A stretch of DNA of 64,000 bases from NCBI GenBank assembly GCA_019634615.1, contig JAHCAZ010000018.1, positions 1-64,000 on the forward strand. The letters run 5' to 3'. The notes beneath the pieces are model-generated. The model was given only the letters and a program-made list of their open reading frames with translations. It did not search any database and was not told the origin of the DNA. The stretch's first letter is position 1. The number at the start of each line of letters is the position of its first letter. Made by a program: the position numbers and the translations under genes. This DNA comes from Opitutaceae bacterium (lineage in GTDB: Bacteria > Verrucomicrobiota > Verrucomicrobiia > Opitutales > Opitutaceae). Positions 2,566-21,598 of the stretch are shown here, one piece after another.

Positions 2566-3405
2566 ATGCCCGACCCCATGCTTTCCCCGCAGCAGCTGAC
2601 GTTTTTCAAGACCTTTGGCTTTCTCGCCTTCCCGGGCCTGCTCAAGGATCGGATCGAGGAGATCACCCGCGAGTTCGAGGCGATCTTTGCCCGGCGCGGC
2701 GGCGGCCATGCCGGGCAGGCGCACACGGGCAAGCAGCGCTCGTGCATCGTGCCCTTTCTCGACCAGAGCGAGGTGCTTTGCTCGCTGCTCGACGACCCGC
2801 GCATCCACGGCATCGCGACCTCCCTTCTCGGCGACGATTTCAACTACATGCCGAGTGACGGCAATTACTACGCGGGTGACACGGGCTGGCATTCCGACGG
2901 CTGGCACCGGGAGACCCTGCATGTGAAAATCGCCTTCTATCTCGATCCGCTCACGCGCGACACCGGCTGCCTGCGGGTCATCCCTGGCAGCCACCGGATC
3001 GGCGACACCTTTGCCGAGGCGCTCAAGGATGAGATATTCGCCAGCGAGGAAACATGGGCGCTGAAGGGCCGCGAGGTTCCGGCCGTGGCGCTGGAGACCG
3101 TTCCGGGCGACATCTTGGTATTCAACCACAACCTCAAGCATGCGGCCTTCGGCGGCAGCGGCTGGCGGCGCATGTTCACGATGAACCTGTGCCAACGTTA
3201 CCCCGAGGCGCGCCTGCCGGAGTTGCGGGAGTATCTCAGCGGGGTCTCGCGCTTCTGGGTCGAGCGGGCCTACGGCGAGATCATGATGCGCACGGCCGGC
3301 CCGCAGCGTCGGCGTCACCTGGAGCAGGTGATGGCCAACGACGGGCATATCGCGGAGTTGTCGCGGCAGGCCCGGGCCAAGATGGCCGAGCCGTCGCGGG
3401 GCTGA
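2566..3405 (+). CDS. Phytanoyl-CoA dioxygenase (PhyH) family protein
   Basis: Predicted Fe(II)/2-oxoglutarate-dependent oxygenase of 279 aa; substrate unknown. The facial triad is visible: the HxD pair in GWHSDGWHRE and the distal histidine in HNLKHAAFGG, followed by an arginine-containing segment (GWRRMF) suited to 2-oxoglutarate binding. The ATG at 2566 was chosen; a second ATG at 2578 would also work. The start follows a C-rich stretch without a Shine-Dalgarno. It stands alone, with 70 bp of featureless sequence before it and a tRNA gene after it. A second, only distantly similar PhyH-family gene is at 52,250. Confidence 0.9.
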   Translation: MPDPMLSPQQLTFFKTFGFLAFPGLLKDRIEEITREFEAIFARRGGGHAGQAHTGKQRSCIVPFLDQSEVLCSLLDDPRIHGIATSLLGDDFNYMPSDGNYYAGDTGWHSDGWHRETLHVKIAFYLDPLTRDTGCLRVIPGSHRIGDTFAEALKDEIFASEETWALKGREVPAVALETVPGDILVFNHNLKHAAFGGSGWRRMFTMNLCQRYPEARLPELREYLSGVSRFWVERAYGEIMMRTAGPQRRRHLEQVMANDGHIAELSRQARAKMAEPSRG

Positions 3406-3486
3406 CAGGAGGTCGGGGACCCACCGCCGCGCCAATCGGCGCTTGCCACCCCAATTCGCCCGGCGGCAAGCTCCCCCAACAACCCC

Positions 3487-9787: not shown

Positions 9788-9844
9788 CGTAGGCCAGCCC
9801 GCTCGCGGGCGCGGTTCGGGCGCGCGCAAGCGCGCTGACCTACG
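9788..9844. repeat. REPIN-like pair of REP hairpins
   Basis: Two inverted units, each beginning with CGTAGG and followed by a GC-rich hairpin. The left unit (from 9788) has stem GCCCGC/GCGGGC (9797-9802/9805-9810); the right unit, read on the minus strand from 9844, has stem GCGCGC/GCGCGC around an AA loop (9822-9827/9830-9835). A GTAG-type head plus hairpin in opposing pairs is the known architecture of REP elements mobilised by RAYT transposases. No RAYT gene is in the window. The TAG stop codon of the downstream oppA-like gene (9840-9842) is the TAG of the right-hand CGTAGG. Confidence 0.75.
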
Positions 9845-11468
9845 GTTGGCTGACGGACTTGAGATAGACCTTCTTGTATTGGTGGAATCCCAGCAGCGCC
9901 GGTTCCCAGCCATGGACGGCGGGATGGATGAGGTAGGTGCGGGTGCCCCAGAAGACCGGCGTGATGGGGGCCTCGCTGAGCAGTCGGGCCTCGGCCTGCT
10001 GGAAGAGTTCGAGGCGCGCGGCGGGATCAGCCGCGGTCGCGGCCCGGGCGATGAAGTCGTCGTAGGCGGCATCCGCCCAGCCGGTCCAGTTGTTGCCGCC
10101 TTGGCTGACGAACAGGTCGAGGAAGGTCACCGGGTCGGCGAAGTCCCCGATCCAGCCGGCGCCGGAGATCATATAGTCGAGGCTCTGCTGGTTCTGCACC
10201 CAGGTCTTTTGCTCAAGCGTGCGGATCTCGAGTTGCACGCCGAGTACCTTCGCCCAGCGGGCCTGGAGGACCTCGCCCATGCCGGGCTGCTGGCCGTCGT
10301 TGCGCACTTGCAGGCCGATCACGGGCAGGCCGCGACCGCCCGGGAAGCCGGCGTCGGCGAGCAGCGCGCGGGCCTGGTCGAAATCGGCGGCGACACCCGC
10401 CCGCGCCGTGTACCCGGCGAGATCCGGCGGCGTGAAATGGGCCGCGGGTGGATTGGCCCCGCGCAGGACGCTGCGGGCGATCGCCGGGCGGTCGATCGCC
10501 AGGGCCAGGGCGCGGCGGACGCGCGGGTCGGTGAAAGGCGGCTTCGTGGTGTTGAATCGCAGGAAAATAGTCTGGAGGAACGGGTCCACGCGCAGGGCCG
10601 CGGGGTCCTGCTCGCGGTAGGTGGCGAGCTTGGTCGAGGGCAGGGCGTGCGTGAGGTGCACCTGGCCGGCGCGAAAGTTGCGCTCCTCGGTCTCGGGGCT
10701 CTCGGTGGGGAGGAAGACGATGCCCTGCAGGCGTACGGCGGCGACGTCCCAGTAATGGAGATTGCGGGTGACCTTCACGTGGGCGTTGGGCCGCCACTCT
10801 GCGAAGGCAAACGGGCCGTTGCCGACGAGATGTTCGCGCGTCCAGTCGTTCGCGCGATCGGTCGCGGCACCCGTGGCGGCGAGGGCACGCGGGTTGAGCG
10901 GGAACCAGACGGGGTTGGCCGTGAGGGCGGGCAGGTAGGGTGTGGGCCGCTCGAGCGTCAGGCGCAGGGTGCGGTCATCGAGGGCCTCGGCGCCAAGGGC
11001 CTCAGGGTCGGTCACGGTGCCGGCGTTGAGGGCCGCGGCGTTCTTCAGCGGGTGCAGGAGATAGGCATATTCGGCGCCGAGGGCGGGCGCCAGGGCGCGA
11101 CGCCAGGCGAAGACGAAGTCACCGGCGACCAGGGGCTCGCCGTTGGACCACGTGAGGCCGTCGCGGAGATGGAAGGTGTAGACGAGGCCGTCATCCGAGA
11201 CGTCCCACCGCCCGGCGGCCGCGGGGACGGCGCGCGAGGTGGTTTCATCCAGCGCGCACAGGCCCTCGAAGAGCGCGAGCAGGATGTTCTGGTCGGTGTA
11301 GGCCGTGACCAGGTGCGGGTCGAGGGACTGGGGTTCGGCGCCGTTGCCGAGGAGGAGGGTCTGCGTGCGGACGCCCGCGTCGGCCGGCGTCGTGCGCTGG
11401 CCGCAGCCGGCGGCCAGGAGGCAGAGGACCGAGGTCAGAAGGCGGAAGTAGACGTGAGATCGGCGCAT
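9840..11468 (-). CDS. OppA-type peptide-binding lipoprotein
   Basis: Extracytoplasmic solute-binding protein of family 5 (oligopeptide/dipeptide ABC import), 542 aa. The N-terminus has a lipoprotein signal with lipobox LAAGC (cysteine near residue 22). Family segments include LLLGNGAEPQSLDPHLVTAY, YTFHLRDGLTWSNGEPLVAGDFVFAWRR and YDDFIARAA near the C-terminus. No permease or ATPase genes of an Opp system are adjacent, so the gene is an orphan here. Two oddities: the hydrophobic core of the signal peptide is encoded by a 7-nt repeat (11,413-11,454), and the stop codon lies in a REP-like repeat. Confidence 0.9.
   Translation of the reverse strand: MRRSHVYFRLLTSVLCLLAAGCGQRTTPADAGVRTQTLLLGNGAEPQSLDPHLVTAYTDQNILLALFEGLCALDETTSRAVPAAAGRWDVSDDGLVYTFHLRDGLTWSNGEPLVAGDFVFAWRRALAPALGAEYAYLLHPLKNAAALNAGTVTDPEALGAEALDDRTLRLTLERPTPYLPALTANPVWFPLNPRALAATGAATDRANDWTREHLVGNGPFAFAEWRPNAHVKVTRNLHYWDVAAVRLQGIVFLPTESPETEERNFRAGQVHLTHALPSTKLATYREQDPAALRVDPFLQTIFLRFNTTKPPFTDPRVRRALALAIDRPAIARSVLRGANPPAAHFTPPDLAGYTARAGVAADFDQARALLADAGFPGGRGLPVIGLQVRNDGQQPGMGEVLQARWAKVLGVQLEIRTLEQKTWVQNQQSLDYMISGAGWIGDFADPVTFLDLFVSQGGNNWTGWADAAYDDFIARAATAADPAARLELFQQAEARLLSEAPITPVFWGTRTYLIHPAVHGWEPALLGFHQYKKVYLKSVSQP
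11413..11454. repeat. Heptad repeat inside the OppA signal-peptide region
   Basis: Six consecutive 7-nt units of the form GNCNGAR on the plus strand: GCCAGGA, GGCAGAG, GACCGAG, GTCAGAA, GGCGGAA and the weaker GTAGACG. On the coding (minus) strand these give RLLTSVLCLLA of the lipoprotein signal. A 7-nt period is unexpected in coding sequence, where periods are multiples of three. Confidence 0.65.
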
Positions 11469-11609: not shown

Positions 11610-13520
11610 CTACGCCGCGGAGGAGTCGGCGAGGGCGGCCTCCTCCCGCTCGCGGCGGAACTGGTTCATGTAGAGATCATAGTAGTGGCCACGCTGGCGC
11701 AGCAGTTCCTCGTGCGTCCCGCTCTCCTCGATCCGACCCTTGGTGATGACGAGGATGCGGTCCGCGCCGCGGATCGTGCTCAGGCGGTGCGCGATCACAA
11801 AGCTAATGCGGCCGGCGAAGATCGTCTCGAGTCCGCGCTGGATGAGCTGCTCGGTCTCGGTGTCGATGGATGACGTGGCCTCGTCCATGACGAAGATCTG
11901 CGGGTCGGCCAGCAGCGCCCGGGCGAAGGAGACCAGCTGGCGCTGGCCGGTGGAGAGGCGGTTGCCGCCCTCGCCGACGGACGAGTCGTAGCCCTGCTCC
12001 GTCTGCGTGATGAACTCGTGGGCGTTGACCAGCTTGGCGGCCTGCTCGACCTCGGCGTCGGTGGCCGTGAGGCGGCCGTAGCGGATGTTCTCGCGGACGG
12101 AGCCCTTGAACAGGTGGGGCGTCTGCAGGACGATGCCGAGTTGCGACTGCAGCCAGGCGAGCGAGCGCTCGCGGTAATCGACCCCGTTGATGAGGATCGA
12201 CCCCGAGGTGGGCTCGTAGAAACGGCAGACGAGGGAAACGATCGTGCTCTTGCCCCCGCCGGAGGGACCGACGAGGGCGATCGTCTGGCCGGCCTGGACG
12301 GTGAGGTTGAAATCCTGCAGGACGACCGGTCCGTTCTCGTAGCGGAACGTGACATTGCGGAACTCGATCGTCTCGATGCGCGCAGGGTAGCCGTCCGGAG
12401 CGAGGGTAATTTCGGATTGGGGAGACCGGATACCGGATAGGTCTGAACCATTCCGGTCTCCGGTTTCCGCTTTCCGGTATTGTTCGAGTCGCTTGAGCAC
12501 GGCCGGGCTGTCCTTGATCTGCGGGTCGGTGGCGAGCAGGCCCATCACGCGTTCGCCGGCGGCCTGGGCGCCCTGCATCTCGGTGAGCTTCTGGGCGAGG
12601 GAGTTGATGGGATTGAAGAACATGCCCGCGAAGTTCACGAACGCGACGAGGGTGCCGAGCGTCATGCTGTCGTTGAGCGTGAGCCAGCCGCCGCGCCAGA
12701 GGGCGAGGCCGGCGGCGACGCTGCTGAGCGTGGTGACGATGGGGTAGAAGAGGGCGTTCTGCTTCGCGTTGAGCACCGACGCGGCGAGCATGGCGGTCGA
12801 GAGCTCCTGGAACTCGCCGAGGTTTTCGCGCTCGCGGACAAGGGTCTTGGTGGTGCGGACGCCTTGGATGGACTCGTTGTAGCTGGCGGTGATCTGGGAG
12901 TTGTATTTCCGGATGTCGCGGGCGCTCATGAGCATCCGCTTCTGGAAGAACTTGGCGATGACGGCCAGCGGCGGGACGACGGCGAGGACAATGAGGCCGA
13001 GGCGCCAGTTCATGATGAGCAGGCTGACGGCGATCATGCACACGAGGCTCAGGCCCCAGACGATGTCGAGGAAACCCCAGGAGATGACGCGGGCAAGGCG
13101 GTCGCAGTCGGACGTGAGCCGGCTGATCAGCCAGCCGACGGGCCGCGTGTCGAAGAACGCAAACTCGAGCTGCTGGAGGCGCTCGAAGCTGTCGCGGCGG
13201 ATGTCGTGGGCGAGGCGGTTGGAGAGGTTGCCGGCCATCTCGATGAACACCCAGATGCCGGTGCAGATCGCGAGCGTGATGCCGAGGTACACGGCAATGT
13301 AGTGCACGAAGGGCGCGTTGGCCCCATCACGCATCACGCCGTCGATGACCCAGCGGGTGACGAGGGCGTAGGCGGCGTCGCACATCGCGATCGTGACGGC
13401 GGCGATGGCGAGCGGGATCAGGTAGCGCTTCATGCCGAGCGCGCGGCGGAAAATCTTCCACCACAGCCCGGCGTCGAGCTTGGCCTTGAAGTCGTCCTCT
13501 TGGTGAAATTGGGCGGACAT
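11610..13520 (-). CDS. ABC exporter half-transporter, second subunit (canonical Walker B, altered signature)
   Basis: Membrane-domain plus ATPase fusion, 636 aa, of the multidrug/lipid exporter type. Six hydrophobic helices occupy about residues 35-320, then the nucleotide-binding domain from about 380. Walker A is GPSGGGKST, Q-loop LGIVLQTPHLF, Walker B IFVMDEATSSID with the catalytic glutamate, and the H-loop is in IAHRLST. The signature is LSTGQ instead of LSGGQ. Residues about 347-370, the linker between the domains, are encoded by a heptad repeat, making the protein longer than usual. It starts 9 bp after the partner exporter gene; together they should form a heterodimer. Confidence 0.92.
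   Translation of the reverse strand: MSAQFHQEDDFKAKLDAGLWWKIFRRALGMKRYLIPLAIAAVTIAMCDAAYALVTRWVIDGVMRDGANAPFVHYIAVYLGITLAICTGIWVFIEMAGNLSNRLAHDIRRDSFERLQQLEFAFFDTRPVGWLISRLTSDCDRLARVISWGFLDIVWGLSLVCMIAVSLLIMNWRLGLIVLAVVPPLAVIAKFFQKRMLMSARDIRKYNSQITASYNESIQGVRTTKTLVRERENLGEFQELSTAMLAASVLNAKQNALFYPIVTTLSSVAAGLALWRGGWLTLNDSMTLGTLVAFVNFAGMFFNPINSLAQKLTEMQGAQAAGERVMGLLATDPQIKDSPAVLKRLEQYRKAETGDRNGSDLSGIRSPQSEITLAPDGYPARIETIEFRNVTFRYENGPVVLQDFNLTVQAGQTIALVGPSGGGKSTIVSLVCRFYEPTSGSILINGVDYRERSLAWLQSQLGIVLQTPHLFKGSVRENIRYGRLTATDAEVEQAAKLVNAHEFITQTEQGYDSSVGEGGNRLSTGQRQLVSFARALLADPQIFVMDEATSSIDTETEQLIQRGLETIFAGRISFVIAHRLSTIRGADRILVITKGRIEESGTHEELLRQRGHYYDLYMNQFRREREEAALADSSAA
12421..12478. repeat. Palindromic heptad repeat within the exporter gene
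   Basis: On the plus strand, four 7-nt units TTCCGGT, CTCCGGT, TTCCGCT, TTCCGGT (12,451-12,478) face inverted units GACCGGA and TACCGGA (12,424-12,437). A perfect 10-bp inverted repeat, GGAGACCGGA/TCCGGTCTCC (12,421-12,430/12,452-12,461), joins the halves. It is in frame and encodes a Gly/Ser/Arg-rich linker (AETGDRNGSDLSGIRS) between the membrane and ATPase domains. Confidence 0.8.
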
Positions 13521-13529
13521 GGGCGGGGT

Positions 13530-15368
<1,839 letters not shown>

Positions 15369-15395: not shown

Positions 15396-15426
15396 AAACG
15401 CAAAACCCGCTCGGGGAGGAGCGGGT
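15396..15426 (-). terminator. Intrinsic terminator in the exporter leader
   Basis: On the minus strand, ACCCGCTC / CTCCCC loop / GAGCGGGT forms a perfect 8-bp GC-rich stem (15,426-15,419 with 15,412-15,405) followed by TTTTGCGTTTT. It lies between the leader ORF and the exporter start codon, so it would stop transcription before the operon unless prevented. Confidence 0.82.
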
Positions 15427-15477
15427 CAGGAGGCAAGGGATTCGCTTTGCCTGGGAGCCCGCTCTTTCGACGCGGGC
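15405..15477 (-). promoter_or_regulatory. Attenuator with mutually exclusive hairpins
   Basis: Read on the minus strand, four segments follow the leader ORF: 1 = GCCCGC (15,477-15,472), 2 = GAGCGGGC (15,464-15,457), 3 = ACCCGCTC (15,426-15,419), 4 = GAGCGGGT (15,412-15,405). Segment 1 can pair with 2 (6 bp), 2 with 3 (7 bp, antiterminator enclosing a small GGCAA/TTGCC hairpin) and 3 with 4 (8 bp, terminator). This is the classic arrangement in which a ribosome paused at the end of the leader covers segment 1 and frees 2 to block the terminator. Pairings were checked base by base; regulation itself is inferred. Confidence 0.7.
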
Positions 15478-15488
15478 GGTGCTTTCCT

Positions 15489-15551
15489 TCAGAAATTCAA
15501 GGTGCCCGCCGGCGCGACGAGGGAAATATCGGAAAGGTCGCGGTGATTCAT
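15489..15551 (-). CDS. Candidate 20-aa leader peptide of the exporter operon
   Basis: Short ORF encoding MNHRDLSDISLVAPAGTLNF and ending in TGA 11 nt before attenuator segment 1. It has no Shine-Dalgarno, like most operon-head genes in this window; the ATG follows a C-rich stretch. The composition shows no run of a single amino acid, so it does not resemble an amino-acid-biosynthesis leader. In B. subtilis, leader peptide BmrB controls the heterodimeric exporter BmrCD by ribosome-mediated attenuation, and this would be an analogous arrangement. Translation is not proven; the support is the position relative to the alternative hairpins. Confidence 0.6.
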   Translation of the reverse strand: MNHRDLSDISLVAPAGTLNF

Positions 15552-15665
15552 AGTTGGGCGGGTGGAAGGAGGACAGGCGCAGGAAAGAAGCTCGTCACGC
15601 CGCTGGCAAGCGGGGATTTTCCTAATAAATCGCCCGATCGTCCGTCTTACCCACTGCCGCAACCC
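15552..15665. promoter_or_regulatory. Divergent promoter region (exporter leader / ECF sigma gene)
   Basis: This 114-bp gap must hold promoters for both the minus-strand exporter leader and the plus-strand sigma gene. It contains a short AT-rich island (GGGGATTTTCCTAATAAAT, 15,612-15,630) that could serve as a -10 region in either direction. No confident promoter consensus could be assigned. Confidence 0.35.
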
Positions 15666-16208
15666 ATGGCCAACGATCAACCCACTGGAAAGGCAGCGCC
15701 GGACGATGCAGACGTCGGATTCCTCGAACGCACTTTCAAGGAGCAGCAGGCCCCGCTCACCCGCTACGCCGCGCGCCTCCTCGGCGACGCGGATCGGGCG
15801 CGTGACGTGGTGCAGGATGTGTTCCTCCGCCTCATGCGGCAGGACCACGCGGAGGTGGCCGGCCACGCGGTGGAGTGGCTGTTCACCGTCTGCCGCCACC
15901 GCGCGCTCGACCTGCTGCGCAAGGAGGGCCGCATGAAACGCTTTGAGGAGGGCGAGATGGAGCGCGTGACGGCGCCCGAGGCGCGACCCGGCCACGCGAT
16001 CGAGGTCGCCGAGACGCAGGCCTCGGTGCTTGAGCTCATCGGCCAGCTGACCCCGCAGCAGCAGGAGGTCGTCCGGCTCAAGTTCCAGAACGGATTCAGC
16101 TACAAGGAAATCAGCCGCATCACCGATCTCTCGGTGACCAATGTCGGCTTCATCATTCACACGGCCGTGGCGCGCCTGCGCACGGCGATGGCCGCCCAGC
16201 GGCCCTGA
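15666..16208 (+). CDS. ECF-type RNA polymerase sigma factor
   Basis: A 180-aa sigma-70 family protein with only regions 2 and 4. Region 2 includes LGDADRARDVVQDVFLRLMR and WLFTVCRHRALDLLRKEGR; region 4 is LTPQQQEVVRLKFQNGFSYKEISRITDLSVTNVGFIIHTAVARLR-type sequence (helix-turn-helix around 140-175). The ATG at 15,666 was chosen because earlier in-frame starts run through the leader region on the other strand. It is followed after 7 bp by a gene whose N-terminus looks like an anti-sigma domain, so the pair probably forms a sigma/anti-sigma module. Confidence 0.93.
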   Translation: MANDQPTGKAAPDDADVGFLERTFKEQQAPLTRYAARLLGDADRARDVVQDVFLRLMRQDHAEVAGHAVEWLFTVCRHRALDLLRKEGRMKRFEEGEMERVTAPEARPGHAIEVAETQASVLELIGQLTPQQQEVVRLKFQNGFSYKEISRITDLSVTNVGFIIHTAVARLRTAMAAQRP

Positions 16209-16215
16209 GGACACC

Positions 16216-18339
16216 ATGAGCACCCAACCCTTTTCCCCCGACGATCCCCAACTCACCGCCTACGCCCTGGGCGAACTCGAAGCCGCCGAGCGCGCCGCCG
16301 TCGAGGCCCGCCTGCGCGATGATCCCGCCGCCCGTGCGGCCGTGGAGGCGATCCGCGCCACGGCCCGGCAGCTGGAGACGGCGCTGGCCGCCGAGCCGCT
16401 GCCGGAGGTGGCGCCGGTGCGGGTCGCCCCGCGGCGAAGCCTGGGACGGATCCTCCGGCTGCCGCAGTTCTACTATGCGACGGCGACGCTGGCGGCCGCG
16501 TGCCTGGTCGTGCTGGTGGCGGTGCGCGGACCGGAGGCGAATCGCCTGGCGGTGGCTCCGCCAGTCGAGCCCGCGGTGTTGGCGGAGGAGACCGCGGTGA
16601 TGGCCAAGCGCGAGCGCGCTGAACCGGCGCCCGCGCCGGCCCCGGCAGCGCTGGCGCGACCAGCGGAAGCGCCGCAGCTGCAGGAGATCTCGGCGGCTGC
16701 GGTCGTGCGGGAAAACGAGGCCCGTGCGGCCGGGGCCCGGGCGAAGCGAGCCCAGATCGCCGAGTTCAAGGTCGATGCCGAAAAGGATCACGCGACCCTC
16801 CTGGGGAACGCGGGATCGGCCGCCCGCATCGGGATGAAGGCTCAGCGTGCGCCGGTCGCGTATGGCACGAAGGCGACCTTTGGCCTCGTCGCCGACCCGG
16901 GCATGAACACCGAGACCTACGCCTACCAGGCGGAGACCGGTTTCGTCGAAGCGGCACAGAACCCGCTTTCGACCTTCGCGATCGACGTGGACACGGCGAG
17001 CTACGCCAACGTGCGTCGCTTCCTCAACCAGGGTCGGCTGCCGCCCGCGGACGCGGTGCGCATCGAGGAACTGCTGAACTATTTCCCCTACCGCTACACG
17101 CCGCCGGCGGGCTCCGATCCCGTCGGGATCACGCTGGAAGTCGCCGCGGCGCCCTGGGCGCCGGATCGCCGGCTCGTGCGCGTCGGCCTGAAGGGGCGCG
17201 AGGTCACCACCGGCGAGCGGCCGGCGGCCAACCTGGTGTTCCTGCTCGATGTGTCCGGCTCGATGAACCACCCCAACAAGCTCCCGCTGGTGCAGGAGTC
17301 GCTGCGCCTGCTCGTGGCCCGGCTGCGCCCGGACGACCGGGTGGCCATCGTGACCTATGCGGGCAGTTCCGGCCTGGCCCTGCCGTCGACGCCCGTGGTG
17401 CGCGCCGCGGAGATCCTGGCGGCCGTGGCCGACCTGCGCCCGGGCGGTTCCACCAACGGCGCCATGGGTATCCAACTCGCGTACGACATAGCGAAGGCGA
17501 ATTTCGTGACCGGCGGCCTGAACCGCGTGATCCTGTGCACCGACGGCGACTTCAACGTCGGCGTCACCAGCGAGGGCGACCTCGTGCGCCTGATCGAGGA
17601 GAAGGCGAAGTCCGGCGTGTTTCTCACCGTGCTCGGCTTTGGCATGGGCAACTACAAGGATGCGACCCTCGAGCGCCTCGCCGACAAGGGCAACGGGCAC
17701 TACGGGTACATCGATGGGAAGCGCGAGGCGGAGAAGCTGCTCGTGGCGCAGGTCAACGGCACGCTGGTGACGGTGGCCAAGGACGTGAAGGTGCAAGTGG
17801 AGTTCAACCCGGCGCGCGTCGCGGCCTACCGGCTGATCGGCTATGAGAATCGGCGGCTGGCCAAGGAGGACTTCAACAACGACGCGGTGGACGCGGGCGA
17901 GCTCGGGGCCGGGCACACGGTCACGGCGCTGTACGAGATCGTGCCGGCGGGCCAGGTGCCGCCGGGTGGCGCGGCGGTGGATGACTTGAAGTACGGGCGG
18001 ACGGAGACGGGCGCGGCGCCGCCGGCGGCGAGCGACGAGCTGCTCAACGTGAAGGTGCGCTTCAAGGCCCCGGCGGCGGAGGCCAGCGAGCGCCGGGAAT
18101 TCCCCCTGCGGGACGCCGGCCTCGGCTTCGCGGCGGCCAGCGCCGACTTCAAGTTCGCGGCGGCGGTGACGAGCTTCGGCCAGCTGCTCCGGGACTCATC
18201 CTACCGCGGCGCGGCCACCTGGGCCGACGTGACGGCCTGGGCGCGGGCCGGGCTGGGGGACGACGCCGGCGGCTATCGCAGCGAGTTCCTGGCGCTCGTG
18301 GCGCAGGCCGCGGAGCTCAATCGCGCGAACGCGCAATGA
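16216..18339 (+). CDS. Anti-sigma-like / von Willebrand factor A membrane protein
   Basis: A 707-aa protein joining three parts. Residues 1-60 (LTAYALGELEAAERAAVEARL) resemble anti-sigma N-termini of the zinc-free kind; there is no HxxxCxxC motif. A transmembrane helix follows at about residues 92-112 (YYATATLAAACLVVLVAV). The periplasmic part has the family segment PLSTFAIDVDTASYANVRRFL, a VWA domain with the MIDAS motif FLLDVSGSMN (about residue 345) and a C-terminal DUF3520-like region, as in E. coli YfbK. It probably holds the upstream ECF factor and may sense an extracytoplasmic state through the VWA domain. The stop is 1 bp from the convergent gene's stop. Confidence 0.9.
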   Translation: MSTQPFSPDDPQLTAYALGELEAAERAAVEARLRDDPAARAAVEAIRATARQLETALAAEPLPEVAPVRVAPRRSLGRILRLPQFYYATATLAAACLVVLVAVRGPEANRLAVAPPVEPAVLAEETAVMAKRERAEPAPAPAPAALARPAEAPQLQEISAAAVVRENEARAAGARAKRAQIAEFKVDAEKDHATLLGNAGSAARIGMKAQRAPVAYGTKATFGLVADPGMNTETYAYQAETGFVEAAQNPLSTFAIDVDTASYANVRRFLNQGRLPPADAVRIEELLNYFPYRYTPPAGSDPVGITLEVAAAPWAPDRRLVRVGLKGREVTTGERPAANLVFLLDVSGSMNHPNKLPLVQESLRLLVARLRPDDRVAIVTYAGSSGLALPSTPVVRAAEILAAVADLRPGGSTNGAMGIQLAYDIAKANFVTGGLNRVILCTDGDFNVGVTSEGDLVRLIEEKAKSGVFLTVLGFGMGNYKDATLERLADKGNGHYGYIDGKREAEKLLVAQVNGTLVTVAKDVKVQVEFNPARVAAYRLIGYENRRLAKEDFNNDAVDAGELGAGHTVTALYEIVPAGQVPPGGAAVDDLKYGRTETGAAPPAASDELLNVKVRFKAPAAEASERREFPLRDAGLGFAAASADFKFAAAVTSFGQLLRDSSYRGAATWADVTAWARAGLGDDAGGYRSEFLALVAQAAELNRANAQ

Positions 18340-18340
18340 C

Positions 18341-21300
18341 TCAGCGCCGCCGGCGGCGCCACGCCGACCAGGCGACCACGCCGAGGCCCAGGCCGAGGAG
18401 CGCGTAGGTGGAGGGCTCGGGGACCGGCACGAAATTGAGCATCAGCGATTCGCCGTATTCGCCGCCGAGCGACAAGGTGAACGTGCCGTTCCGCCCGTCG
18501 AGCTCGGTGCTGTTGGCGAACTGGCTGAAATCCACGCTGAACTTCGCCGGGTCGAATCCGACGGTGCTGTACGACTCGATCACCATCCAGCTGTAGGCCT
18601 GGCTGGGATCGAAGTTGGCCGCCTGGCCGGCGGTGCCGTTGGCCTGCAGCGTGATGATCTTGATGCTGAAGCGCTCATCGGACGTGGCCGTGATGTAAAG
18701 CGTCGTGTCGGCGACGATCGAGATCAGGTCCCAGCCTGCCGGGCCCTCCCCGCTGGCGTCGCGCAGGTTCCACTCCAGCGTGCCGCCGGAGGCGAGGGTC
18801 AGCTCGTCGAAGCGCAGGCGGCCGATCGGGCCCTCGTTCGCCAAGCCAGGGGCGACGGTCACGTTGGCCCCGATGACGGGGTGCGAGGCGAACGTGCCGT
18901 GGCCGGCGAGGCGGCCCGACTCGGCGATGATGTCGTTCCCCAGGGTGGTGTCGTGGTTGACCGCGAGCGTGCCGCCCTTGAGCAGGACCGAATCGTAGCC
19001 GAGCTGGACGTAGCTGTACGAGTACTCGTAGCTGCTGTACTCGCCGCCGTACGCATTGCCCGAGACGATCAGCGTGCCGGCGCGGATCTCGGCGCTGATG
19101 GCGGCCTCCCGGCCCTGGTCGCCGATGCCGTAGAAATCCATGTCCCCGTAGACCCGGAGCGTGCCCGGTCCGTCCTTGACGAAGGTCGCCGTGCCCCAGC
19201 CCTCGCCGGTATCGGTGTGGATGTTGCCAACGAACTTGGTGTCGGTGCCCTCGGGCTGCACGACCTTGAACACCGTCGCGTCCTGCAAGAGGTGGAACGT
19301 GGCGTAGTCGCTGTCCTCCCGGCTGTCCAGGCCGTGGATGACCGGGGCGTTCGTCTGGACATACACATCGCTGTAGGAACCGCCGCCAAAACCCAGCCGG
19401 CCGACGCCGGTGGCCGTGGGGGAGGCGATCGTCAGCTGGGCATAGGGTCGGAGGTAGACGCCGCCGGAGAACGTATTGTCGCCGGAGAGCTCGAGCGAGG
19501 CGTCCTCCAGCAGATCGAGGCCGCCCGTGCCGGAGATCGTGCCGCCCAGTCGGAACGGCTCGAAATCGTTAATGCTCAGGCTGGCGTTGAGCTGGATGGG
19601 ATTGTTGACGGTGAAGAGGCCTTCACCCGTCGGCTCGGACACACCGAGCTCGGCGTAGAGCTCGGAGCTGGCTTCACCCGGAACCGTGATGTTGTGGGGC
19701 TGGACCACCAGGGCGCCGCCGCCGAGGGCCTGCTCGTTCCCGAGGAGCAGGCGGCCGGCGTAGAGCGTCGTCGCGCCGCCATGGGAATTTTGACCCGAGA
19801 GCAGGACGGTGGAATACTCCTCCTTGTTCGGGTCGCCCATGGTCCCGAGCGTGTTCGGCTCGCCGATGAAGACCTGGGCGGAGGCGCCGGAGAGGGTGCT
19901 GGCGACCTCGAGGGCGCCGCCCTTGTAGGCCGCGAACCGGTAGTTCCCGTCCTGGCCCGGGGTGAGGTTGCCCGTCAGGCGGAGGCCGGGTCCATTGATC
20001 TCGCCGTAGGTGTCATACACCGCCGAGGCGGTGCCGACGTACACGCCGTTGGTGAAGGCGCTGAGATTCAGGTCGGCGATCACGCGGGTCGTGTTGACGT
20101 TGGGGCCGAGGTCGAAGCCAATGATGCCCTGGGTCGCGGGGCTGAAGTGCGGCAGGAGGTCGGCCGGCAGCAACTCCGGGTCCTCGGTGCCGATGTAGCT
20201 GCCGCGGTCCATCGTGTAGGTCCCGCCGGGGAGCGCCACGCCGTCACCGAAGATCAGCGCCGAGTTGCTCACGTTCACCGTCCCGCTGAAATCGTTGGTC
20301 GTGTTCATCAGGCGCACGGTGAGCGGCAGCTCGGCCGGGGAGCTGACGTCGAGGTTGCGGGCGCCGGTCAGCGGGCTCGCGACCGCCAGCGTGCCGCCGC
20401 CGCCGCCGAAGCGGTAGGTCGAGCCGAAGGGCGTGATCACCGCCGCCGGATCGAGGACCGCGCCGGTGGCGCTGCCGAGGCGCACCGTGCCGTTGAGGCC
20501 GGTGAGCGAGATCGGCGTGTCGAAATGATCGAGGCCGACCGAGAGATCCGAGTCGAAGCCGATCGTGCCGGCGGAGGCGGCATCGATCTCGCTGAGGAAG
20601 AGGCCGACGTTGTTGTCGACGCCGATGCCCGCGTAACCATCCGAGCGGACCAAAATGCCGCCGGTGATGCCGGGCGTGTTGTCCTCGCCGCCGAAGATCA
20701 GGACGCCCTTGGTCACGTCCGTGCCGCCGGTCCAGCCGCTGCTGCCGGTGACGATGACGGCGCCCTCGGCGTCGATCGTGAGCTTGCGGGCGCCGCCGGT
20801 CTCGCTGATCCCGCCCTCGATGAACAGCGGGCGGCCCGTTGGCGCGATGATCGTGTCCGCCGCGAGCATCACCAGGCCCTCGAAACTGAGCTCATCGTCG
20901 TTTTCGGTGCGGATCGTGCCGTTGCTGACAACGGGGTTGCCCACGCGCACGTCGCTCTCGCTGTAGTAGCCGTCAACGAGCTTGGACGAGGCGATCAGCG
21001 TGCCGCCGTTGAACACGAGCGTGCCCGTCCCCAGGGAGGTGGAGGCCCCCGACCCGATGGCGACCCGGCCGCCCGACAGGACCAGCCCGCCGCTCCACCC
21101 CTCGTTGTAGGATTCCTGGAGCATCAGGGTGCCGCTGCCGGTCTTGGTGATCTGGCCGATGCCGGAGACGTAGTATTCGAGGGCGAGCCCGCCGCTCTGG
21201 ATGTCCCAGGTCTGGTTCTGCGGCACGTAGACGCGGTAGGCGCCGATCTGCGAGAACAGGGGCTGAGCCGGCGCATAGACGAGGCCGTCGGCGCCGATGG

Positions 21301-21598
21301 TCAGGTCGCCGTAATCGTCGTCGAGGTGATAGGGCCGCGTGATGCCGGTGATCGAGAGCCGGCGGGCATTGATGTCCGTGTAGAAGGTGACGGAGTGCCG
21401 GGCCGAGTCGCCGAAGATAAACTCCTCGGTGCCATCGTTGAGCGGCAGGACATCGCCGAGCCAGTTCTCCGCCACGTCCGTGCCATCGTAGCTGCCCAAG
21501 CCGGTCCAGGTGACCGAGACCTGGGCGCCAGCCGTGAGGATACTGCCGAGAATGATGCCGATGGCCAGAAGGGTGTGGGTTCCACGCGGGCGTTTCAT
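18341..21598 (-). CDS. PEP-CTERM protein with autotransporter-type beta-strand repeats
   Basis: Secreted surface or matrix protein of 1,085 aa. It has a signal peptide (TLLAIGIILGSILTAGAQ), then many glycine-rich beta-helix repeats (such as TKTGSGTLMLQESYNEGWSG and LVFNGGTLIA), typical of the autotransporter-associated beta-strand repeat. The C-terminus carries the sorting tag VPEPSTYALLGLGLG, a hydrophobic helix and a basic tail RRRRR. Such tags are removed by an exosortase, usually encoded with exopolysaccharide genes; none is in this window. Function beyond a structural or adhesive role is unknown. A 926-codon frame on the opposite strand is only its shadow. Confidence 0.93.
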   Translation of the reverse strand: MKRPRGTHTLLAIGIILGSILTAGAQVSVTWTGLGSYDGTDVAENWLGDVLPLNDGTEEFIFGDSARHSVTFYTDINARRLSITGITRPYHLDDDYGDLTIGADGLVYAPAQPLFSQIGAYRVYVPQNQTWDIQSGGLALEYYVSGIGQITKTGSGTLMLQESYNEGWSGGLVLSGGRVAIGSGASTSLGTGTLVFNGGTLIASSKLVDGYYSESDVRVGNPVVSNGTIRTENDDELSFEGLVMLAADTIIAPTGRPLFIEGGISETGGARKLTIDAEGAVIVTGSSGWTGGTDVTKGVLIFGGEDNTPGITGGILVRSDGYAGIGVDNNVGLFLSEIDAASAGTIGFDSDLSVGLDHFDTPISLTGLNGTVRLGSATGAVLDPAAVITPFGSTYRFGGGGGTLAVASPLTGARNLDVSSPAELPLTVRLMNTTNDFSGTVNVSNSALIFGDGVALPGGTYTMDRGSYIGTEDPELLPADLLPHFSPATQGIIGFDLGPNVNTTRVIADLNLSAFTNGVYVGTASAVYDTYGEINGPGLRLTGNLTPGQDGNYRFAAYKGGALEVASTLSGASAQVFIGEPNTLGTMGDPNKEEYSTVLLSGQNSHGGATTLYAGRLLLGNEQALGGGALVVQPHNITVPGEASSELYAELGVSEPTGEGLFTVNNPIQLNASLSINDFEPFRLGGTISGTGGLDLLEDASLELSGDNTFSGGVYLRPYAQLTIASPTATGVGRLGFGGGSYSDVYVQTNAPVIHGLDSREDSDYATFHLLQDATVFKVVQPEGTDTKFVGNIHTDTGEGWGTATFVKDGPGTLRVYGDMDFYGIGDQGREAAISAEIRAGTLIVSGNAYGGEYSSYEYSYSYVQLGYDSVLLKGGTLAVNHDTTLGNDIIAESGRLAGHGTFASHPVIGANVTVAPGLANEGPIGRLRFDELTLASGGTLEWNLRDASGEGPAGWDLISIVADTTLYITATSDERFSIKIITLQANGTAGQAANFDPSQAYSWMVIESYSTVGFDPAKFSVDFSQFANSTELDGRNGTFTLSLGGEYGESLMLNFVPVPEPSTYALLGLGLGVVAWSAWRRRRR

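Follow-up and report, generated by a model that had tools for sequence, protein, structure and literature searches.

The window, which is the whole 64,000-nucleotide stretch of Opitutaceae bacterium DNA analysed here, carries on its minus strand a two-gene ABC exporter preceded by a short leader region. The features of this region, in window coordinates, are as follows.

15581-15609, minus strand: promoter-like element, recognised by its recurrence in orthologues, with a -35 TTGCCA (15609-15604), a 17-nt spacer and a -10-like TTTCCT (15586-15581)
ATG 15551 to TGA 15489, minus strand: leader ORF of 20 codons, MNHRDLSDISLVAPAGTLNF, from reading the open frame
15504-15509, minus strand: segment 0, GCGGGC, the codons Ala-Gly within the leader ORF, partner of segment 1
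15502-15499 and 15489-15486, minus strand: stem straddling the leader stop codon (CCTT/AAGG), nested in 0:1
15477-15472, minus strand: segment 1, GCCCGC, pairing with 0 (proposed on state) or 2 (proposed off state)
15464-15457, minus strand: segment 2, GAGCGGGC, pairing with 1 (proposed off state) or 3 (proposed on state)
15452-15447 and 15436-15431, minus strand: apical stem between segments 2 and 3 (AGGCAA/TTGCCT), an extension of the antiterminator
15426-15419, minus strand: segment 3, ACCCGCTC, pairing with 2 (antiterminator) or 4 (terminator)
15412-15405, minus strand: segment 4, GAGCGGGT, then a T-rich tail, TTTGCGTTTT, to 15395, forming an intrinsic terminator with segment 3
13530-15368, minus strand: exporter subunit A, 612 aa, ABC membrane and ABC ATPase domains (domain matches)
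11610-13520, minus strand: exporter subunit B, 636 aa, ABC membrane and ABC ATPase domains (domain matches)

Exporters such as BmrCD, TM287/288 and TmrAB are heterodimers in which one ATPase site is degenerate. Subunit A has a Walker B motif ILDDA, in which D replaces the catalytic E, together with the signature LSGGQ, and subunit B has a canonical Walker B (VMDEA) with a degenerate signature (LSTGQ), a pattern that is that of a degenerate-site heterodimeric ABC exporter, recurs in relatives and upholds the original prediction of a BmrCD-type site in this gene pair. Matches to BmrC and BmrD (7m33 chains) are at 3e-80 and 2e-89, those to P-gp, TmrAB and others are as good or better, and drug export by the pair may be expected from this family resemblance. 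On the other side of the leader are a divergent ECF sigma factor gene and then a gene for a von Willebrand/YfbK-type protein (15666-18339, plus strand), and a large protein with a repeat-rich body and a C-terminal PEP-CTERM sorting motif is encoded at 18341-21598 (minus strand). Downstream of the exporter and on the same strand is the gene for a family 5 extracellular solute-binding protein of the oligopeptide type (9840-11468, minus strand), which may be co-transcribed with it.

When the minus strand is re-read, the leader ORF, segments 1-4 and the terminator lie where they had been placed, and the mutually exclusive helices 1:2, 2:3 and 3:4 have the 6, 7 and 8 bp claimed for them, with 3:4 counting 8-9 bp. 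Three parts had been overlooked, namely segment 0, the stop-codon stem and the apical stem of the antiterminator. Segment 0 is the GCGGGC inside the leader ORF with which segment 1 pairs in the minimum free energy fold. Segment 1 begins 11 nt past the leader stop at this locus, and the terminator is 62-84 nt past the stop, i.e. outside the leader ORF. On the evidence of this single locus, which is weak, the attenuator is only mildly unusual; terminator-like sites are at chance level in the 10 kb scanned (4 vs 3.6 expected) and the fold z-score of this sequence alone is -2.2 relative to shuffles. The source genome has one copy of the attenuator. With Rfam at gathering and relaxed thresholds the leader region has no match at threshold, the best being anti-hemB (E 0.39, 15 bits), and the whole window yields one tRNA at threshold and no leader or riboswitch.

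The relatives are more informative. Orthologues of the exporter (E <= 1e-100) are encoded by 43 of 150 sampled Opitutaceae genomes, and inspection of the upstream DNA shows that the leader with its alternative pairing, expected from the original prediction to be shared by orthologous exporters, is present as such or in a reduced or altered form at about 38 of the 43. There is no recognisable leader in the upstream DNA of four of them (L026, L032, L037 and L109), and L038 is ambiguous. The leaderless orthologue pairs are L032/L110, L037/L111, L026/L112 and L109/L165 (Geminisphaera colitermitum TAV2), and the promoter-like element of L032 and L037 appears to abut the gene directly, as if the leader had been deleted. 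A covariance model (CM) of the leader has matches in 90 of 252 Opitutaceae genomes, where those with E <= 4e-6 are all directly upstream of an exporter orthologue and those weaker than this are mostly noise. The CM E-values are rough, as seen from a match outside the family but within its order (G288/L072, E 1.4e-7), which was rejected as an ordinary terminator that follows an unrelated gene. In families f21, f29 and f33, which belong to the same order or class, a leader ORF of 20-21 codons and a terminator also precede the exporter in some members, the two were not found at the 39%-identical exporter homologues of family f43, and the leader is retained among exporters down to 50-60% identity. 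Two genomes of the same genus (L024, L025) have a different upstream neighbour and keep the leader, and because the neighbour varies while the leader stays, the leader belongs to the exporter. Leader control is therefore probably old within the Verrucomicrobiota, judging from this distribution. In other phyla, a short ORF of about 20-33 codons and an intrinsic terminator also seem to lie ahead of homologous exporters of 39-50% identity, in Phycisphaera of the Planctomycetota (L162:1337-1676), Cloacimonadota (L167, about 3146-3485) and Anaerolineae (L168, about 2984-3323).

Covariation of the pairings was assessed by a partner-swap test on 44 leaders from 16 genera, in which helix partners were exchanged between genera in 5000 swaps. 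The 0:1 duplex has an energy of -22.5 kcal/mol with its own partners versus -18.1 kcal/mol when they are swapped, and none of the 5000 swaps is as good. The corresponding counts are 0/5000 for the 3:4 terminator, 7/5000 for the stop-codon stem, 62/5000 for 2:3 with its apical stem (88/5000 for the apical stem alone) and 1194/5000 for 1:2, the covariation of which is untestable because this helix is nearly invariant. The best covariation is that of 0:1, with the terminator next. Individual leaders illustrate how 0:1 is maintained, including a compensatory change to GCGGACC/GGTCCGC in L022, a helix of 12 bp in L080, and the distant genus g20, where CGAGC...TTCT pairs with AGAAGGCTCG. Across 33 sequences the stop-codon stem has two-sided changes at 5/5 aligned pairs, and in the CM alignment of 33 sequences the on-structure (0:1, stop stem and 2:3) has 34 two-sided-change cells vs 11.4 in shuffles, the off-structure (1:2 and 3:4) is 99.6% paired, and 3:4 and 2:3 taken separately are paired in 100% and 98.7% of cells. 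Because 0:1 and 3:4 were used in fitting the CM alignment, the swap test is fairer than these counts. Segments 2, 3 and 4 of L034 and L113 have their outer base changed jointly. Hence an intrinsic terminator, made of 3:4 and a T-run and covarying, separates leader and gene in these genomes, and the mutually exclusive antiterminator 2:3 is kept as a pairing and covaries as an extended helix, with weaker support. The original prediction looked to relatives for both a conserved peptide and compensating changes; the former is not seen, while the latter are found in 3:4 and more weakly in 2:3, 1:2 being near-invariant. Just 5' of segment 3, the distant members L099-L105 have a pyrimidine-rich TTTCCCTCCCATCCC that is perhaps a pause or protein site.

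The comparative evidence, consisting of the placement of the CM matches, the single genomic copy and the covarying pairings, lifts the attenuator far above chance and supports what had been predicted in general terms, a ribosome-dependent transcription attenuator upstream of the exporter that is conserved in relatives. We propose that the exporter is probably controlled by a five-segment (0-4) transcription attenuator that senses the position of the ribosome, with early arrest turning expression on. Transcription would start about 20-30 nt before the leader ORF of about 20 codons. In a healthy cell the ribosome would run to the end of the leader and mask segment 0, such that 1 pairs with 2 and 3 with 4, transcription terminates at the intrinsic terminator and the exporter is off. 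If the ribosome were held within roughly the first six codons, by arrest at the start codon or in early elongation and most likely by a translation-inhibiting drug, then segment 0 would be bare and would take 1, leaving 2 free for 3, which would prevent the terminator and let transcription proceed into the exporter. The signal would presumably be an antibiotic, and one that the exporter removes. While the attenuator itself appears well supported, its trigger comes from modelling.

The ribosome positions that would switch the attenuator were modelled thermodynamically, with a crude ribosome footprint and RNA up to just before segment 3. This state was modelled too because equilibrium folding with segment 3 included favoured 2:3 at most ribosome positions, and both set-ups shift the same way. 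With the ribosome in the last nine codons, 1:2 forms in 94-100% of the 33 close sequences, and with it no further than the fifth or sixth codon the mean P(1:2) is about 0.37 in close and about 0.32 in distant sequences, the drop being due in the folding model to 0 taking 1. P(1:2) falls from 0.76 for a ribosome at the last codon to 0.37 for one at codon 3, and shuffling the final 33 nt of the ORF brings it back to 0.71 (Wilcoxon p 2.5e-8), with a shift of >0.3 in only 26 of the 44 sequences. At this locus P(1:2) is 0.00-0.01 for early and 0.94-0.97 for late stalls. When segment 3 is included, P(2:3) in close relatives is 0.94 for an early stall and about 0.55 for a late one, with a smaller shift, from 0.96 to 0.85, in distant relatives. 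In ribosome-free RNA the mean P(1:2) is 0.58 (0.85 at this locus), an ambiguous prediction, and leader translation may therefore be needed for induction.

According to the original prediction the switch has only four segments and the polarity of bmrB, trp and vmlR, in that a ribosome stalled at the leader end covers segment 1 and frees 2 for 3, while free translation, or none, leads to termination. Segments 1-4 do exist and are conserved, bmrB (PMC4191407) and vmlR (PMC9226507) are inducible only if their leaders are translated, and folding without a ribosome predicts 1:2 for the RNA of this locus. However, the gap from stop to segment 1 is 11 nt (median) in close relatives and 17 nt in distant members, which is outside the modelled footprint, and a modelled ribosome that has the stop codon in its A site still leaves 1:2 formed in 91-100% of sequences. 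These results do not support induction by an end-of-leader stall, and four segments also leave the covarying 0:1 helix unexplained, making this an unlikely account of the switch. Because a terminating ribosome does not reach segment 1 in the model and segment 0 competes for that segment, the five-segment attenuator should have the reverse polarity, with an early stall as the on signal and late or complete translation as the off signal. Two genomes, L031 and L108, have lost segments 1 and 2, and in them a direct 0:3 pairing is possible, with a probability of 0.89-0.94 in ribosome-free RNA before segment 4 is made. Loss of both segments would keep the polarity, as the five-segment model requires, which is suggestive for what are only two genomes or genera. 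The chances seem to us about even that the element is, more broadly, an early-arrest sensor that is independent of peptide sequence, kept across much of a Verrucomicrobiota class and collapsible to a three-segment form (0:3 vs 3:4) of the same polarity.

Nearly all orthologues have, ahead of the leader, a TTGC(C), a 17-nt spacing and a T-rich hexamer, a weak match to the sigma-70 consensus that was not picked up at this locus by a promoter consensus scan. In relatives the leader ATG is 50-78 nt from the start of the -35, the frame starts at the first ATG past the -10 in 52 of 53 leaders, and in more distant relatives this ATG is preceded by a Shine-Dalgarno sequence. Leaders range from 15 to 26 codons, mostly 19-22, and end in TGA (38), TAA (10) or TAG (7) among 55 examples. 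Hence the -35 box, start codon, stop codon (of any of the three kinds) and terminator are retained despite sequence turnover. The -35 box of this locus is within a palindrome (15600-15613, CCGCTTGCCAGCGG), a possible operator, and several relatives (L018, L051, L017), not all, have similar ones.

The peptide is another matter. In the N-terminal half of the leader, differences within genera number 429/494/449 by codon position and single changes are 80 synonymous vs 195 non-synonymous; no purifying selection on the N-terminal peptide was found in this within-genus comparison of Opitutaceae. The position of the stall rather than the peptide sequence therefore seems to matter, and a generic early stall is favoured as the probable signal. 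In families f29 and f33, leaders of L118, L119 and L121 share a C-terminal SW-PG-GVV-like pattern, and peptide sequence may matter there, in contrast to the Opitutaceae.

These features also bear on other types of control. The 5' region is conserved and strongly structured, as it would be if a metabolite or an RNA-binding protein switched the structures and the ORF were incidental, but a riboswitch-like element of this kind is improbable given that the start and stop are kept in frame though the identity of the stop changes, that segment 0 lies shortly before the stop codon, within the stretch that would be masked by a terminating ribosome, and that Rfam gives no match at threshold. Even less probable is an attenuator responding to starvation for one amino acid via regulatory codons; the overall layout is alike, but neither a run of codons nor a conserved set for any one amino acid is found among the 55 leaders, extending what was originally noted for this leader alone, the N-terminal codons drift, and the downstream gene is for an exporter and is not biosynthetic. 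We likewise give very little credence to a short independent RNA with an ordinary terminator, which would suit the chance frequency of terminator-like sites in this GC-rich DNA, as across many genera the element keeps its place immediately before the exporter even though its other neighbour changes, and here the divergent sigma factor gene means that the exporter-facing terminator has no upstream gene to serve.

Classical attenuators of the trp type have alternating helices with the terminator last and the first helix overlapping the end of the leader ORF. This layout is shared by the five-segment attenuator, in which one extra segment shifts the pairing register by one and there are no regulatory codons. 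Ribosome-sensing attenuators of resistance genes are known mostly from Bacillota, with others in Actinobacteria and Proteobacteria, and the element described here would place control of the bmrB/vmlR kind, as a variant with segment 0, in the Verrucomicrobiota. The original prediction knew of no description of such a leader from this phylum and none was found in the open-access literature, in which subscription papers are mostly not covered. Analysis of premature terminators predicted attenuators (ABC-leaders) upstream of ABC transporter operons, including a lactobacilli multidrug exporter (PMC2965389), which share the placement before an ABC transporter and are not the present element, and that text names no Verrucomicrobia or Akkermansia. 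If the model is correct, the polarity of the switch is set by how many segments compete, and the model predicts which part of the leader must stall. It also provides a handle for finding inducible exporters bioinformatically in uncultured soil and water bacteria, and exporters of this type may be under leader control far more widely across phyla.

The closest parallels are in Bacillus subtilis, where bmrB is a 53-codon leader ORF of bmrCD with the terminator inside the ORF, and a start-codon mutant of it is low and uninducible, showing that induction requires leader translation (PMC4191407). The element here is of the same general type, with a leader ORF and a terminator, antiterminator and anti-antiterminator before a heterodimeric ABC multidrug exporter, and differs in having only about 20 codons, a terminator past the stop and an extra segment 0 in the ORF that competes for 1. 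In vmlR, the stalled ribosome prevents formation of an anti-antiterminator that contains the uORF (PMC9226507). In both vmlR and our model an early drug stall, predicted in our case, on a very short uORF alters the choice between anti-antiterminator, antiterminator and terminator, yet here the stalled ribosome is predicted to leave segment 0 uncovered, and the target is an exporter rather than an ABCF factor. Stalling at the start codon by several drug classes has been reported for vmlR, cplR and vga(A), and the toiL uORF of topAI in Escherichia coli is a multi-drug sensor of ribosome-targeting drugs (PMC12121999). As with toiL, the cue in our model is the position of the stall and not one specific peptide, but toiL works via translation repression and Rho (PMC12121999), whereas the leader of the Opitutaceae exporter would act through an intrinsic terminator.
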